Shown: piece after piece, positions 20,832 to 36,445 of the stretch | Numbering within the stretch: position 1 is the first letter of the stretch | Layout of the letters: every line of letters begins with the position of its first letter | Assembly: GCA_937929885.1 (NCBI GenBank) | Contig: CALFUQ010000404.1 | Coordinates: 1-37,441, forward strand | Source: an uncultured Saprospiraceae bacterium | Lineage (GTDB): Bacteria; Bacteroidota; Bacteroidia; Chitinophagales; Saprospiraceae | DNA length: 37,441 nt | Reading direction: 5' to 3' | Made by a program: the position numbers and the translations under genes | The notes under the pieces: model-generated | The model's database searches: none | Seen by the model: only the letters and a program-made list of their open reading frames with translations | What the model was told of the DNA's origin: nothing

Positions 20832-22564
20832 TCTAATGCAATTTCGTTTACAGCCTTACCTGAGGCTATCATAGGAAATATATTTTCTTCGTTTTGAACT
20901 TTCACATGTAGCAGGTATGCTCCTTTATAGTCGAGCATTTCTTTTACGCTGCTTTCTAGATCTTTAGGATCTTCTATTCTTTTTCCTTTTACTCCGAATC
21001 CATCTGCAATTTTTACAAAGTCTGGGTTCTCTAACTCTACAGCAGAATATCTTCTATCGAAAAACAACTCCTGCCATTGCCTTACCATCCCAAGGTGCTC
21101 ATTGTCTAGCAAAAGAATTTTTACTCTTACATCCCACTGGGTCAAAACCCCAAGCTCTTGCAAGGTCATCTGAAAGCCTCCATCTCCAATTACTGCTATG
21201 ACATGCTTCTTTGGCTTAGCCATTTTAGCTCCTATCGCTGCTGGTAATCCATAGCCCATAGTTCCTGCACCACCAGAAGAAACCCAAAGGTCTTTATCTA
21301 GGTATTCATAATATCTCGCTGCGATCATTTGGTGCTGACCTACATCGGTAACTACAATAGCTTTCCCTTTAGTCTGATCAGATACCTCCTTGATAACTCT
21401 TCCCATCGTCAACTCACCTGTCATGTTTTTCTTAAGATCTCTTGAGATCACTTTTCTATGCTCTATCCTATGACATGCATGAAACTCATCTAACCATTTC
21501 TTGTAACTCTTCTTTTTCACTTTCGGCATCAATGCCTTGAGCGCATCTTTAGCGTCACCTAATAATGGCACTTCTACTTTTACATTCTTATTGATCTCAG
21601 AAGGATCTATCTCAATGTGTATTTTCTTGGCTTGCTTTGCGTACCTGCTCAAATCTCCAGTAACCCTATCATCAAATCTCATCCCTATAGCAATCAAAAG
21701 ATCGCATTCATTTGTTTTCACATTAGGACCTAGGTTACCATGCATTCCTAACATTCCTACATTTAGCGGATGGTCACTCGGTATTGTAGAAAGTCCATGA
21801 ATTGTAGTTCCAACAGGGATCCCAGTTTTCTCTACGAATTTCTTAAACTCATTTTGAGCTTCTGCAATATGGATACCATGCCCAGCTAAGATGAGTGGTT
21901 TTTTTGCTTTATTAATGAGCTTAGCTGCTTGCTCGATCGATTCTGCAGAAATAGTTCGTTTAGGAATATAACTCCTAATAACTGGATCTTTGTCATATCT
22001 AAATTCTATTTCTTGTAGCTGTGCATCTTTTGTAATGTCAATTAAGACTGGCCCTGGTCTTCCAGTATTAGCTATGTGAAAAGCCTTTGCAAATGCAGCT
22101 GGAATTTCTTCTGCTTTAGTGATTTGAACATTCCACTTTGTTATTGCCGTAGAGCACCCAATCACATCTACTTCTTGGAATGCATCTGAACCTAACAAAT
22201 GACTAAATACCTGACCAGTAATGCAAACTAATGGTGTAGAATCAAGTAGTGCATCTGCCAAGCCTGTAAAAAGGTTTGTTGCACCTGGCCCTGAGGTGGC
22301 CATACAAACACCAGTTTTTCTAGATACTCTAGCAAAACCCTGTGCGGCATGTATTGCACCTTGCTCATGACGAGTCAGAATGTGTTGTATCTTATTTTGA
22401 TATCCGTGTAGCGCATCGTACACTGGCATGATTGCTCCACCAGGGTATCCATATATCAGGTTCACTCCTTCTTCCAAAAGACACATAAGAATCGCTTCTG
22501 ATCCAGATACCTTTTTGGCCTTTTTCCTACTGACCCGTTTTTTCGCTTTACTTTTTACGCCCAT
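20828..22564 (-). CDS. ilvB: Acetolactate synthase large subunit, biosynthetic type
   Basis: [58 protein letters not shown] ThDP-binding motif. Confidence 0.96.
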
Positions 22565-30525: not shown

Positions 30526-32085
30526 ATGCCTAAGCAATCTACCGAGTACTTAATACAATTAGTCAGCAACTTAACATCTGCGGAAAAGCGGAATTTCAGG
30601 CTATTTGTAAATAGGAATAATGCTAAGAATGATAAGCTGTTTGTGCAGTTATTTGATGTAATCGATAAGAATAAGAAGCATGATGATGCTACCATACTTG
30701 CTAAAATACCTGATCTCAAACCTGTCCAATTATCAAATGTAAAGGCCAATCTCTACAAACAGCTACTCTCCAGCCTAAGGCATATCGAGCGGAATAATCA
30801 AATAGATATAGCAGTTAGAGAAAACTTAGATTACTCCAAAATCTTGTACTCTAAGGGTCTATACAAAGCTAGTCTTGCCCTATTAGACAAAACAAAAAAA
30901 CAAGCAAAACAAAATGGACTTCACTCAGCAGCATTGGTAGCACTAGAATTTGAAAAATACATAGAGTCACAATATGTAACTGGCAGTATGTACCCCAAAG
31001 CAAAACAGATCACTGATGAAACTGATGAGTTAATCAACAAGCTTGATCTGACCAATGACCTATCTAATCTTTCGATATCAATGTACGCTTTGTACTTGCA
31101 ATATGGCCATGTGAAGCGAGGAGAGAATTATGATAAAGTAACTAGCTACTTCAAAGATAATATGCCATCTGTCGAAGTTTACAATCTAGATTTTTACCAA
31201 AAACTATATTTATACCAATCCTATGTCTGGTACAACTTTATGATTCAAGATTTCCCGAGTAACTATAGGTATGCTCAGAAGTGGGTAGATCTTTTTAGAA
31301 AGTATCCAGAAAAGATTAGTACTGACACCGCCTTGTACATAAAAGGTCTCCACAATGTTTTATCTGCGTTGTTTATGTCTGGCAGGTATGATAAGTTCAC
31401 TCAAAATTTTGAGCTACTTAATAATTTTAGCTCAGATTTAAATAGGTCAATGACCAAAAACGAAGAAGGTCAACTGACACTTTATCAATCTATACATGCA
31501 ATACATTTGATTTTCCTTACAGGCTTATATGATGAAGGAGCATTAAATATGCCGCAGATAGAAAAGCTAATCGAGCAAAATAAATATGAATGGGATCTGC
31601 ACAAGATCATGGTGATCAGATATAAAATCGCATGCATTTATTTTGGAGCTAATAAATTGGACAAGGCACTTAACCTTCTTAACAAGATTATCTCTCACAA
31701 CTATACAGAGATCAGAGAAGACATCCAATGCTATTCCCGAATACTGAGTCTTGTGAGTCATTTTGACTTAGGTAATGAGTTCTTAGTAAGTTATCAAGTG
31801 AAGTCCGTCTACAGGTTTTTGCTTAAGACACACCAACAACAAGAGGTGCTTAAAGAGGTATTCAAATTCTTGAGAAAGACGCCAAACATTCTTCCATCAG
31901 AGATCAATGGAGAATTTAAAAAACTAAGAGATAGACTACTTAAACTACAAGGTGATCCTTTTGAGAGAAGACCATTTTTATATTTTGATATAATCTCTTG
32001 GTTAGAATCTAAGATCAATAATAGTCGAATCCAGACTGAGATCCAGAATAAAATCCAACTTAAAGCTGCTTCGCTGGCAAGATAA
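30526..32085 (+). CDS. Conserved hypothetical, likely alpha-helical repeat protein
   Basis: 519-aa ORF, strong coding composition, helical-repeat-like pattern (LEFEKYIESQYVTGSMYPKAKQITDETDELINKLDL...); no recognised catalytic motif. Confidence 0.6.
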   Translation: MPKQSTEYLIQLVSNLTSAEKRNFRLFVNRNNAKNDKLFVQLFDVIDKNKKHDDATILAKIPDLKPVQLSNVKANLYKQLLSSLRHIERNNQIDIAVRENLDYSKILYSKGLYKASLALLDKTKKQAKQNGLHSAALVALEFEKYIESQYVTGSMYPKAKQITDETDELINKLDLTNDLSNLSISMYALYLQYGHVKRGENYDKVTSYFKDNMPSVEVYNLDFYQKLYLYQSYVWYNFMIQDFPSNYRYAQKWVDLFRKYPEKISTDTALYIKGLHNVLSALFMSGRYDKFTQNFELLNNFSSDLNRSMTKNEEGQLTLYQSIHAIHLIFLTGLYDEGALNMPQIEKLIEQNKYEWDLHKIMVIRYKIACIYFGANKLDKALNLLNKIISHNYTEIREDIQCYSRILSLVSHFDLGNEFLVSYQVKSVYRFLLKTHQQQEVLKEVFKFLRKTPNILPSEINGEFKKLRDRLLKLQGDPFERRPFLYFDIISWLESKINNSRIQTEIQNKIQLKAASLAR

Positions 32086-32288: not shown

Positions 32289-32320
32289 TTTGATATTTTG
32301 AATTATTGGCCTTAGTTTTA
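32289..32320 (+). promoter_or_regulatory. Candidate promoter for the pheA leader: TTTG-N20-TAGTTTTA
   Basis: TTTG at 32289-32292, 20-nt spacer, TAGTTTTA (one mismatch to TAnnTTTG) at 32313-32320. Confidence 0.4.
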
Positions 32321-32328
32321 CGGTGATA

Positions 32329-32394
32329 ATGATAAACAAGACTTTTAGCACATATTTTAGTTTCTTTTACTTTTTTACCAAAAAGAAGGACTAG
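32329..32394 (+). CDS. Putative phe leader peptide MINKTFSTYFSFFYFFTKKKD* (attenuation)
   Basis: ATG ATA AAC AAG ACT TTT AGC ACA TAT TTT AGT TTC TTT TAC TTT TTT ACC AAA AAG AAG GAC TAG; 6 Phe and 2 Tyr in 21 aa, directly upstream of antiterminator/terminator elements and pheA. Confidence 0.85.
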   Translation: MINKTFSTYFSFFYFFTKKKD

Positions 32395-32398
32395 GACT
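32387..32398 (+). repeat. Tandem AGGACT-AGGACT antiterminator element
   Basis: Each AGGACT is the reverse complement of AGTCCT (32428-32433) in the 5' arm of the terminator; the leader stop codon TAG (32392-32394) lies inside the element. Confidence 0.6.
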
Positions 32399-32423
32399 AT
32401 ATAGTAGCTAAAATCAAAAATAT

Positions 32424-32455
32424 AAGGAGTCCTGCAGTGTAGGACTCCTTTTTTT
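32424..32455 (+). terminator. Attenuator terminator upstream of pheA
   Basis: Perfect 10-bp stem AAGGAGTCCT / AGGACTCCTT with GCAGTGT loop and T7 tract, 22 nt before the pheA start. Confidence 0.9.
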
Positions 32456-32477
32456 GTTTTAGGAATTGATCTAATAA

Positions 32478-33329
32478 GTGGATAAAACAATTGCAATACA
32501 AGGATATCGGGGATGCTTTCACCAAGAAGCAGCTGCTAAGTATTTTAATAGTACCGATCTATCTGTATTAGAATGTGATACATTCAACAAGCTTGGGGAA
32601 GCAATCAGCGATGAAGTGGCACCTATAGGAATCATGGCAATAGAGAATTCAATTGCGGGTAGTATAATTCAAAACTATAGGATTCTTAGAGAGAATGACT
32701 TTACAATTGTAGGTGAAGTATTCCTAAGGATAGTACATAATCTAATGGCATTACCAGGTGAAAATATTCAATCACTTAAGGAAGCTAGTTCTCACCCAAT
32801 GGCCATAAATCAGTGTTTGCACTTTTTTAAACAACATCCGCATATTAAACTTGTAGAATCAAATGATACTGCCCTAAGTGCCAAACTGGTCAGTGAAAAT
32901 GGATTAGAAGGTTATGGCGCGATTGCAAGTAAAACGGCTGCAAAATTGTATGGTTTAGAGATTTTAAATGAAGGTATAGAAACTTCGAAGATCAATTACA
33001 CACGATTTTTTATCATTCAAAAAAATGAGTGTGTTATTAATCATGATGAAGTAAATAAAGCTTCCATTTATTTGCGGGTATTAGACAAACCAGGATGTCT
33101 ACTTAAAGTCTTGAAGATAATCGAAGATCAAAACACCAATATCAGTAAACTACAATCATATCCTGTATTGGGCAAAGTGAGCGAATACTTCTTTCATTTA
33201 GACCTTGAGTTTACTCACTACTTACAGTATAGAAACATCATGGATAAACTTCAGGATGTAACAATGGAATTAAAAGAATTAGGCTCTTACAAAAAAGCGA
33301 AAGTATATGATAATCAGCCCGTCGGATAG
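32478..33329 (+). CDS. pheA: Prephenate dehydratase (with ACT domain)
   Basis: IAIQGYRGCFHQEAAAKYF; IMAIENSIAGSI; GAIASKTAAKLYGLEIL; NYTRFFII; ACT region ASIYLRVLDKPGCLLKVLKIIEDQNTNISKLQS. GTG start. Confidence 0.93.
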   Translation: MDKTIAIQGYRGCFHQEAAAKYFNSTDLSVLECDTFNKLGEAISDEVAPIGIMAIENSIAGSIIQNYRILRENDFTIVGEVFLRIVHNLMALPGENIQSLKEASSHPMAINQCLHFFKQHPHIKLVESNDTALSAKLVSENGLEGYGAIASKTAAKLYGLEILNEGIETSKINYTRFFIIQKNECVINHDEVNKASIYLRVLDKPGCLLKVLKIIEDQNTNISKLQSYPVLGKVSEYFFHLDLEFTHYLQYRNIMDKLQDVTMELKELGSYKKAKVYDNQPVG

Positions 33330-34488
33330 AATAGGAAAAGTAAAGACATATTACTTCGCTACCAAGCTTGCTCAGATCGCTAAGATGAATAAGGAAGGTA
33401 CGCCTATAATTAATCTTGGAATAGGAAGTCCAGATCAACTGCCTCCTTCTGCTGTCATCGACAGGCTCAATGATGCAAGTAAAGGGTCTGATGTAAACAA
33501 GTATCAATCTTATACAGGTATTCCTCAGCTTAAAGAAGCATTTGCAAATTGGTACCTAAGACATTTTACAGTCGAGGTAGATCCCACCAAAGAAGTGCTT
33601 CCGCTCATCGGATCTAAAGAAGGCATTATGCACATCGCCATGTCATTTCTTAATCCTGGTGACAAAGTTCTTGTTCCTAATCCAGGTTACCCAGCATATA
33701 GGATGACTACACTTTTAGCTGGAGCTGAACCATTACCTTTTGACCTTAAGGAAGATAATGATTGGCAACCAGATTTTGAAGCGATAGAAAAAGAAGACCT
33801 GAGCAAAGTAAAGATTATGTGGGTCAACTACCCTAACATGCCAACAGGAGCAAAGGGATCAAAAGAACTTTTCAAAAAGCTTATTGCATTCGGAAAGAAG
33901 CATAGCATCTTAATTTGTCATGACAATCCTTATGGATTTATTCTGAATGACAAGCCAATGAGTATTATGGAATTTCCAGGTGCTAAAGATGTTGCACTTG
34001 AATTAAACTCTTTAAGTAAATGTTATAACATGTCTGGATGGAGAGTCGGTGTGATGGTAGCAAACCAAGATATAATCCAGTCTGTGCTTAAGTTTAAAAG
34101 TAACATGGACTCGGGCATGTATAAGCCGTTACAGATCGCTGCTACGGAAGCGTTAAGTCAGGATCAAGCTTGGTTTGACAGTTTGAATGCAGAATACCAA
34201 AAGAGAAGAGAAGTAGTTTGGCAGATCATGGATATCCTCCAATGTCAATATGATAAAGACAGAGCGGGGCTATTCGTTTGGGGTAAAGTACCAAGCGATG
34301 TATCAGATACAGAAACTTGGGTGGAAAAGATCTTACAAAAAACTAGGGTGTTTATTACGCCAGGATTCATTTTTGGCACTAATGGTGCACAGTATATAAG
34401 AATATCTCTTTGTACGGATGTAGCAACATTCCAAAAAGCATTGAGCAAAATCGAAAAATATATAATCCTTGAAAAATCAATAGCATGA
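33307..34488 (+). CDS. Class I/II PLP-dependent aminotransferase (probably aromatic/prephenate-pathway)
   Basis: INLGIGSPDQLPP; NPGYPAYRM; WVNYPNMPTGA; SLSKCYNMSGWRVGVMVAN. Located between pheA and tyrA; overlaps pheA by 23 nt. Confidence 0.85.
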   Translation: MIISPSDRIGKVKTYYFATKLAQIAKMNKEGTPIINLGIGSPDQLPPSAVIDRLNDASKGSDVNKYQSYTGIPQLKEAFANWYLRHFTVEVDPTKEVLPLIGSKEGIMHIAMSFLNPGDKVLVPNPGYPAYRMTTLLAGAEPLPFDLKEDNDWQPDFEAIEKEDLSKVKIMWVNYPNMPTGAKGSKELFKKLIAFGKKHSILICHDNPYGFILNDKPMSIMEFPGAKDVALELNSLSKCYNMSGWRVGVMVANQDIIQSVLKFKSNMDSGMYKPLQIAATEALSQDQAWFDSLNAEYQKRREVVWQIMDILQCQYDKDRAGLFVWGKVPSDVSDTETWVEKILQKTRVFITPGFIFGTNGAQYIRISLCTDVATFQKALSKIEKYIILEKSIA

Positions 34489-35351
34489 AAATCTGTGTAG
34501 TAGGCTTAGGTTTGATAGGTGGGTCAATGGCAATTGATCTTAAAGTAAAGGGGCATCATATAATTGGTGTGGATAAGAGTCCTTCTCATATTGAGAAAGC
34601 ATTGGAACTAGGTTTGGTAGATGAGGTGCATGACCTAAATAATGCACTAGAGGAGGCTGAAGTTGTGATCATTGCTGTACCAGTTGATGCAATAGAAAAA
34701 GTTTTAGTGAACGTACTGGATCAAATGAATCCGAAAGCAATAGCAATAGATGTAGGGTCTACCAAACAAGAAATATGTGAAAGTGTAAAGACACACAATA
34801 AGCGAGGTAGATTTGTAGCTGCGCATCCTCTTGCAGGTACTGAGTTCTCTGGACCTACTGCCGCGATTCCAAACCTGTTTAGCGGTAAGAAAAATATCAT
34901 CTGTGAAGAAGAGCGCATTGATGAAGATGCTCTGGATACTGCCTTACAGGTCTTCTCAGAAATAGGGATGACGAATATATTTATGAATCCAGATAACCAT
35001 GATATGCACGTTGCATATGTTTCTCACCTTTCTCACGTAAGTGCATTCACACTCGGTTTGACAGTACTAGATATAGAGAAAGACGAGAAGCAGATATTTA
35101 ATTTAGCAAGTACAGGATTTGAATCTACCGTCCGTCTTGCTAAAAGTTCTCCTAACACTTGGGCATCTATTTTTAATAAAAACTCAAATCATCTGGCGAA
35201 AGCGTTAGATAACTATATATCAAAACTCCAAGAATTTAAATCAGCCATCGAAAATCAGGATTCTGAAAAAATGAAAGCCCTGATGGATGATGCTAATGAT
35301 ATCAAAAGAGTATTAAAAGGAATAAAATTGAACGTTGTTAAATTAAGCTAA
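34485..35351 (+). CDS. tyrA: Prephenate dehydrogenase
   Basis: ICVVGLGLIGGSMAIDLK; DVGSTKQEI; AAHPLAGTEFSGP; DMHVAYVSHLSHVSAF; 4-nt overlap with preceding gene. Confidence 0.9.
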   Translation: MKICVVGLGLIGGSMAIDLKVKGHHIIGVDKSPSHIEKALELGLVDEVHDLNNALEEAEVVIIAVPVDAIEKVLVNVLDQMNPKAIAIDVGSTKQEICESVKTHNKRGRFVAAHPLAGTEFSGPTAAIPNLFSGKKNIICEEERIDEDALDTALQVFSEIGMTNIFMNPDNHDMHVAYVSHLSHVSAFTLGLTVLDIEKDEKQIFNLASTGFESTVRLAKSSPNTWASIFNKNSNHLAKALDNYISKLQEFKSAIENQDSEKMKALMDDANDIKRVLKGIKLNVVKLS

Positions 35352-35353
35352 AT

Positions 35354-36445
35354 ATGTCAACTGAAACATTAACTCAAAAATCAAAAACTAACTGGTTCCG
35401 AAAGACTGATGTACCTGTCGTGATCTCAGGACCATGCTCTGTAGAAACAGAGGAACAAGTATTAGAAACTTGTAAAAGACTTAAAGCTACTGGTAAGGTA
35501 GATATCTTAAGAGGAGGAATCTGGAAACCAAGAACCAGGCCTGGCACTTTCGAAGGTATCGGGATTAAAGGGTTGCCATGGATGAAAAGAGTCAAAGAAG
35601 AAACTGGTCTACCTATCACTGTAGAAGTTGCTAAAGCTGCACACGTAGATGCTTGTTTAGCATTTGGTGTTGATATCCTTTGGATAGGTGCTAGGACTAC
35701 AGTTAATCCATTTGCGGTACAAGAGATTGCTGATGCGGTAAGAGGAGTGGACATTCCTATCCTAGTTAAGAATCCTATAAATCCTGATCTAGCATTATGG
35801 ATGGGAGGCATGGAAAGGTTTAGAGCGGTAGGTGTGGAAAAACTTGGCGCAATTCACAGAGGGTTCTCTCATATCGGTGAGAAGTTTTACAGGAATAGAC
35901 CTGAGTGGCAAATTGCTATCGAATTCATGAGGCAAAATCCCGACACCCCATTAATCGGAGACCCAAGCCATATCTGCGGCAGAAGAGATATACTTAAGGA
36001 TGTATCTCAAAAGGCAATTGATTTAGGATTTGATGGACTAATGGTTGAATCTCATATCGATCCTGATAATGCATGGAGTGATGCTAAGCAACAAATTACT
36101 CCAGAGGTATTAGGTGATATGATCACTTCGCTCAAGGCAAGACAAACAAAAGAAAATGATGAAGGCGCACAAGGCTCACTTGATTACTTAAGACAAGAGA
36201 TAAATACGATCGATGATGACATCCTAAATCTATTCGCATCTCGAATGGGAATCGCTAGAAAAATCGGTGAGTATAAAAAAGCTAATAACATGACCATCCT
36301 ACAACAAAAGAGATGGAATGAAATAATAGAGAAAGTACAGGCTAAAGGAGTAGAAAAGGGATTAAGCAAAGAGTTTATATCTAAGTATATCAAAGCGGTG
36401 CATGATGAGAGTATCAATCAGCAGGAAGAAATAATGAAGGGGTAG
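35354..36445 (+). CDS. Bifunctional 3-deoxy-7-phosphoheptulonate synthase / chorismate mutase (AroQ class, C-terminal)
   Basis: VVISGPCSVETEEQVLETCKRLKATGKVDILRGGIWKPRTRPGTFEGIG; IGDPSHICGRRDI; C-terminal LRQEINTIDDDILNLFASRMGIARKIGEYKKANNMTILQQKRWNEI is AroQ chorismate mutase-like. Confidence 0.93.
   Translation: MSTETLTQKSKTNWFRKTDVPVVISGPCSVETEEQVLETCKRLKATGKVDILRGGIWKPRTRPGTFEGIGIKGLPWMKRVKEETGLPITVEVAKAAHVDACLAFGVDILWIGARTTVNPFAVQEIADAVRGVDIPILVKNPINPDLALWMGGMERFRAVGVEKLGAIHRGFSHIGEKFYRNRPEWQIAIEFMRQNPDTPLIGDPSHICGRRDILKDVSQKAIDLGFDGLMVESHIDPDNAWSDAKQQITPEVLGDMITSLKARQTKENDEGAQGSLDYLRQEINTIDDDILNLFASRMGIARKIGEYKKANNMTILQQKRWNEIIEKVQAKGVEKGLSKEFISKYIKAVHDESINQQEEIMKG

Follow-up and report, generated by a model that had tools for sequence, protein, structure and literature searches.

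The window, a 37,441-nt stretch of contig CALFUQ010000404.1 (assembly GCA_937929885.1) from an uncultured Saprospiraceae bacterium, contains an operon of four genes for aromatic amino acid synthesis that is preceded by a short reading frame rich in Phe and Tyr codons and by an intrinsic terminator. The features of this operon are listed below.

32289 to 32292, plus strand: probable -33 promoter element, TTTG, separated by a 20-nt spacer from the -7 element
32313 to 32320, plus strand: probable -7 element, TAGTTTTA, which agrees with TAnnTTTG at 5 of its 6 fixed bases and ends 8 nt upstream of the leader ATG
32329 to 32394, plus strand: leader peptide ORF, MINKTFSTYFSFFYFFTKKKD* (region 1), with aromatic codons at positions 6, 9, 10 and 12 to 16
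32387 to 32392, plus strand: AGGACT copy 1, a possible alternative partner of the terminator 5' arm (-8.5 kcal/mol)
32392 to 32398, plus strand: region 2, the putative antiterminator strand TAGGACT (copy 2, across the leader stop codon TAG), -9.8 kcal/mol with region 3
32424 to 32435, plus strand: region 3, terminator 5' arm, AAGGAGTCCTGC
32439 to 32450, plus strand: region 4, terminator 3' arm
32449 to 32455, plus strand: T7 tract of the intrinsic terminator, near which the 3' end of the attenuated RNA is expected
32478 to 33329, plus strand: pheA, prephenate dehydratase, GTG start
33307 to 34488, plus strand: PLP aminotransferase, probably the aromatic aminotransferase of the operon
34485 to 35351, plus strand: tyrA, prephenate dehydrogenase (NF006307, above cut-off)
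35354 to 36445, plus strand: DAHP synthase/chorismate mutase (DAHPS/CM) fusion

The leader ORF, which is presumably translated, encodes 6 Phe and 2 Tyr among 21 residues. It matches base for base the 21-codon ORF with 8 aromatic residues reported in a preliminary description of this DNA, which had also named the four downstream gene products correctly. The folding of the leader region suggested there gave a structure more stable than dinucleotide shuffles (z = -3.1). The terminator (32424 to 32450, -18.4 kcal/mol) is followed by the T7 tract and then, as described, by a gap of 22 nt to the pheA GTG at 32478; its stem can be drawn as a perfect 10 bp with a 7-nt loop or as 12 pairs if the loop closes to 3 nt.

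Two copies of AGGACT stand head to tail at 32387 to 32392 and 32393 to 32398, running across the leader stop codon, and both are complementary to AGTCCT at 32428 to 32433 in the terminator 5' arm, in agreement with the preliminary description. A third copy lies inside the terminator 3' arm (32441 to 32446). The proposal that the tandem copies act as the antiterminator holds with respect to pairing with region 3, with the correction that copy 2 is the likeliest working strand, because it forms the better helix (-9.8 versus -8.5 kcal/mol) and sits where the relatives of this sequence have their single region 2. Copy 1 would be fully exposed only with a ribosome stalled at codon 16 or earlier. 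The 1:2 hairpin of the preliminary description, in which the partner strand was 32362 to 32368, was not confirmed. Folding without a ribosome pairs region 2 with upstream sequence, and the local hairpin joins 32370 to 32376 with 32382 to 32388 at a weak -3.1 kcal/mol; it is not conserved in the two closest relatives (L111 and L112) and was rejected as a conserved element. The attenuator model does not need it.

Leaders and terminators before pheA in Bacteroidia

The survey of pheA upstream regions drew on genomes related to that of the window, on its family, on an even sample of the phylum and on named genomes, and the scan searched for a short ORF with at least five aromatic residues in eight and a terminator 12 to 130 nt past its stop codon. 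Among 180 distinct upstream regions of Bacteroidia-type pheA, 157 contained this unit, against none on the reverse strand of the 180 and none in five dinucleotide shuffles of each. Some loci had already been inspected when the ORF and terminator criteria were fixed, and the loci share ancestry, which means that these counts do not amount to independent trials; the contrast between pheA upstream regions and controls is total despite this. Because the unit recurs in relatives and is absent from the reverse strand and the shuffles, a chance origin is excluded.

Upstream regions filed under other pheA types were positive in 2 of 35 cases, a Dysgonomonadaceae bacterium (L063) and a member of the window's own family (L122), both of which had been misfiled by a crude N-terminal motif; the remaining, more distant pheA genes, which include one from the window's family (L132), gave 0 of 33. 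The unit was not detected in 23 of the 180 regions; in several of these, pheA directly follows another gene, the terminator of a leader escaped detection, or the genome is that of an endosymbiont. The endosymbiont loci from Blattabacterium (L069) and Azobacteroides (L084) have no attenuator and have probably lost it. Before pheS, no phenylalanine leader with a terminator was found in 6 relatives, and this is counted as specificity of the attenuator for pheA.

In total, aromatic leaders occupy the same place in 160 pheA loci and form 181 leader-terminator units, every one of which contains both Phe and Tyr codons (181/181). Phe makes up 24.6% and Tyr 18.3% of leader residues, compared with 4.3% and 3.7% in PheA itself. 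The leaders stay rich in aromatic residues while their sequence changes, and beyond this richness their sequence shows no conservation across the class; relatives do keep the terminator and its T tract. The closest relatives, whose PheA proteins are 66% (L111) and 60% (L112) identical to that of the window, have the leaders MKQYSFSNYFYFYYFSQE and MKSFSFSSYFFFYYFFSKKR, each with its own terminator. The comparison of upstream regions that had been proposed as a check therefore shows the aromatic ORFs to be kept. A hairpin lacking an aromatic ORF, named beforehand as the case that would count against the model, was also looked for; the one apparent example that was checked (L127) has an aromatic ORF with a GTG start. 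Trp was considered as a third sensed amino acid and rejected: 47 of the 181 units contain a Trp codon, yet Trp accounts for 1.3% of leader residues.

Mutually exclusive pairing and the position of the ribosome

Pairing between regions 2 and 3 was assessed by swapping, in which the stretch from the last aromatic codon to the terminator was matched with the terminator 5' arms of its own and of other loci. The own arm paired better than the mean of the swapped arms in 178 of 181 units (mean of -13.5 versus -8.4 kcal/mol), and, of the first 91 units, 79 had a duplex better than dinucleotide shuffles (p <= 0.05). At its longest, the Watson-Crick 2:3 helix averaged 6.7 bp, compared with 4.2 bp in shuffles. 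The pairing strands differ by lineage and change together, being TAGGACT/AGTCCT in the window, GACAGGATTTT/AAAATCCTGTC in Dysgonomonas and relatives, and GGGACTT/AAGTCCC, GGGGCTTTTT/AAAAAGCCCC or GGAGCTACT/AGTAGCTCC in other family members. Covariation between regions 2 and 3 is strong. Of 126 2:3 helices with 6 bp or more, 101 use region-3 bases that are also fully paired in the terminator; since the same bases serve both structures, antiterminator and terminator cannot coexist.

Region 2 begins at a median of 11 nt (duplex measure) or 12 nt (perfect-helix measure) past the last aromatic codon, although relative to the stop codon its start varies widely, between about 27 nt before the codon and 4 nt after the first base of the codon. 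Such spacing would follow if region 2 were positioned by the leading edge of a stalled ribosome. In 178 of 181 units the start of region 2 precedes stop+12, so that a ribosome at the stop codon would cover it. In a simulation of the window sequence, the leading edge of the ribosome was assumed to lie 15 nt beyond the start of the P-site codon; with A-site codons 6 to 18, region 3 paired with region 2, and it lost this partner from codon 19 on. The switch at codons 18/19 therefore puts the aromatic codons 6 to 16 on the "on" side and the stop codon on the "off" side. The geometry first proposed for this leader, with region 2 free during a stall at an aromatic codon and masked at the stop codon, is reproduced by the simulation and agrees with the spacing seen across the 181 units.

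These features very probably constitute a ribosome-mediated transcription attenuator of the pheA-aminotransferase-tyrA-DAHPS/CM operon that senses charged tRNA-Phe and tRNA-Tyr. The reading is built on the leader, the terminator, the mutually exclusive pairing, the covariation, the spacing and the function of the operon as they appear in the DNA, from which we infer where transcription starts, that ribosome and polymerase are coupled, that the ribosome stalls, and which way the operon responds; for Bacteroidota, transcription-translation coupling is an assumption. Transcription would start just before the leader ATG, with a ribosome trailing the polymerase. When charged tRNA-Phe or tRNA-Tyr is scarce, the ribosome would stall on one of codons 6 to 16, leaving region 2 (32392 to 32398) free to pair with region 3 once the latter emerges, and this pairing would block the 3:4 terminator so that the operon is transcribed. 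When both charged tRNAs are plentiful, the ribosome would reach codons 19 to 22 and cover region 2, region 3 would pair with region 4, and transcription would end near 32455. Every prediction of the earlier attenuator model that could be tested at the sequence level (conserved leader, 2:3 covariation and spacing) was upheld, with the 1:2 hairpin as the exception.

In the window itself the 2:3 helix is short (about 7 bp, -9.8 kcal/mol) and reaches p = 0.1 against shuffles when taken alone. Folds of the full-length leader contain the 12 terminator pairs in every case, whatever the position of the ribosome. The terminator is thus thermodynamically favored at full length, and antitermination would therefore have to be kinetic, as is usual for attenuators of this class.

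It is very unlikely that the switch senses a small molecule, a protein or the nascent peptide itself (as an arrest peptide), with the leader codons as passengers. Some regulated 5' regions do combine ORFs with riboswitches, which gives this idea a general precedent, but no T-box or riboswitch model of Rfam has a gathering match in the window, and an arrest peptide or ligand pocket is disfavored because the leader is not conserved beyond its aromatic content. The leader codons also match the products of the operon, and the same holds elsewhere in the genome. A Trp-rich leader (WWW), MILNTNWWWLQKTKILGTS, with a terminator precedes trpE (L228) and matches Rfam RF01692, Bacteroid-trp, at 49.2 bits (threshold, 49), and a His-rich leader (HTHHH), MRYVIHTHHHFGITRVC, with a terminator precedes hisG (L223). 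The window holds a second candidate attenuator on the minus strand, where an Ile/Val/Leu-rich leader, MNTSLVINIIVVIT* (24384 to 24340), is followed by a terminator (24304 to 24278) just before a gene (24249 to 22576) that adjoins ilvB (20837 to 22507). The pheA switch is thus one of a set, since leaders also precede trpE, hisG and the ilvB-adjacent gene, and to judge from the sequences the sensed codons follow the operon in each case.

A further alternative, that the hairpin is merely the terminator of the upstream gene (30526 to 32085) and the aromatic ORF a chance reading of T-rich DNA, has a very low probability. The hairpin is a good terminator with a bidirectional stem, and aromatic codon runs do arise by chance: on raw genome DNA, runs of five Phe/Tyr codons are no commoner than the reversed pattern (143/163 versus 144/157), so that a genome-wide count of such runs was discarded as uninformative for finding attenuators. 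The hairpin, however, lies about 340 nt past the upstream gene, with a probable promoter between that gene and the leader. A leader ORF complete with start and stop codons, together with a terminator, is present in 157/180 of the pheA upstream regions and in none of the controls; leader content is retained as the sequence changes, and the 2:3 pairing covaries. That the leader acts mainly on pheA translation, by translational coupling or reinitiation, is hardly credible either; short leader ORFs near the next gene have been proposed to raise its translation in Bacteroidota (PMC4833913), but here 83 nt with a T7-terminated hairpin separate the leader stop codon from the pheA start, compared with a spacing of 11 to 14 bp in that class, and the terminator with its T tract is conserved.

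Probable promoters and serial attenuators

The ribosome-mediated attenuator appears to be transcribed from promoters of the Bacteroidota type, for which the -7 consensus is TAnnTTTG. An exact match occurs in the 60 nt ahead of the first leader at 123 of 160 loci, compared with 9.7 expected, and in 111 of these 123 relatives TTG is found 17 to 23 nt further upstream (29.8 expected). The -7 element of the window is imperfect, and a match of its quality is reached by 19% of shuffles when taken alone; in L111, the closest relative, the corresponding site reads TAGCTTTG and lies 10 nt ahead of the ATG. Distances from TAnnTTTG to the ATG are bimodal, at 4 to 11 nt (26 loci, including L002, L003, L009, L111, L114 and L119) and at 16 to 46 nt. 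Transcription from this promoter class starts a few bases past the -7 element, so a -7 element that abuts the ATG implies a leader RNA that is leaderless or nearly so. This suggests near-leaderless translation of the leader in the 26 loci and, by inference from its imperfect element, in the window.

Two Phe/Tyr leader-terminator units stand in series before pheA in at least 21 loci, mostly from one clade of the window's family (L005, L007, L008, L014 to L018, L021, L024, L025, L028, L060, L131, L206, L208 to L211, L220 and L222). A promoter motif is missing ahead of the second leader in 20 of the 21 tandem loci. Of the tandem loci, 14 could be placed on a tree of PheA, and 13 of them belong to a single supported clade (24 rows) inside the window's family. 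The window belongs to a different clade of this family and carries one unit, with no second attenuator of the kind seen in its relatives within 700 nt upstream. The two leader ORFs of Salmonella mgtCBR sense different signals, whereas both copies in the tandem pheA loci are Phe/Tyr leaders. The likeness between the two systems lies in the serial arrangement, since two short leader ORFs in series control one transcript in mgtCBR (PMC3641672) as in the 21 or more relatives, the window having one. Many leaders of the tandem clade (for example, those of L005, L014, L015 and L060) have Gly-x-Pro or Ala-x-Pro as their last three residues (FFYGSP*, FFYGQP*, FFYAQP*), and the C-terminal proline might slow release and so prolong the masking of region 2.

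Relation to known leaders and significance

Control of amino acid operons by leader peptides is textbook knowledge for Proteobacteria, and the pheA attenuator of Escherichia coli (pheL) has a Phe-rich leader peptide and a mutually exclusive antiterminator and terminator before pheA. The Bacteroidia element resembles pheL in these respects. It differs in that Tyr codons are about as regular as Phe codons, the operon also includes tyrA and DAHP synthase/chorismate mutase, no 1:2 hairpin is conserved, and the promoter is of the Bacteroidota type. The corresponding Rfam family, RF01859 (Phe_leader), has no match in the window, and the best relative (L005) scores 35.7 bits against a gathering threshold of 55. 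No Rfam family reached threshold on the window and 12 pheA relatives, and a class-wide phe attenuator family of Bacteroidia is not in Rfam.

Within the phylum, the literature found amounts to a single Rfam family for trp and short mentions in transcriptome studies. Bacteroid-trp (RF01692) is a leader-peptide RNA before trp genes of Bacteroidota (Weinberg et al. 2010, PMC2864571); it shares the layout of the pheA attenuator and senses Trp rather than Phe/Tyr, and its model stays below threshold (49 bits) on the window and on every pheA leader tested. In Flavobacterium psychrophilum, a 2021 study reported a structured pheA 5' element that is conserved in Flavobacteriaceae and has no Rfam match, together with clues to leader-peptide attenuation before amino acid operons (PMC9723704); the passages of that study on this element present neither a leader sequence nor an antiterminator, and they describe neither covariation nor an occurrence outside the family. 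ORFs in 5' untranslated regions of Bacteroides thetaiotaomicron were described as "reminiscent of leader peptides" (PMC7366714). The class of mechanism is thus classical, and the example from this phylum was partly anticipated by RF01692 and, as far as those passages go, by PMC9723704. With Lopatovskaya 2010, a candidate source, lying outside the scope of the search, nothing was found that describes a Phe/Tyr family spanning the class or its covariation, nor any account of the tandem form or of near-leaderless leaders.

We lean toward the view that the attenuator in the window belongs to an undescribed, class-wide family of aromatic attenuators in Bacteroidia, which includes a near-leaderless group with the window among its members and a neighboring clade with serial pairs. 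This family, which could join Rfam, is of higher interest than the attenuator of the window itself. The near-universal presence of the Phe/Tyr attenuator before Bacteroidia-type pheA, and its absence from the distant pheA genes sampled, would mean that translation in these bacteria trails transcription closely enough to control termination, and coupling in Bacteroidota becomes testable at a single site. Bacteroidota use little Shine-Dalgarno pairing, and the near-leaderless leaders pose the question of how ribosomes start in such a phylum. For the organism, the switch most likely lets the bacterium read its own supply of Phe and Tyr and turn on the genes for their synthesis. In the neighboring clade, serial attenuators would multiply two decisions, giving a lower leak and a steeper response if the proposed reading is true, and so provide a natural experiment on the effect of doubling a switch.
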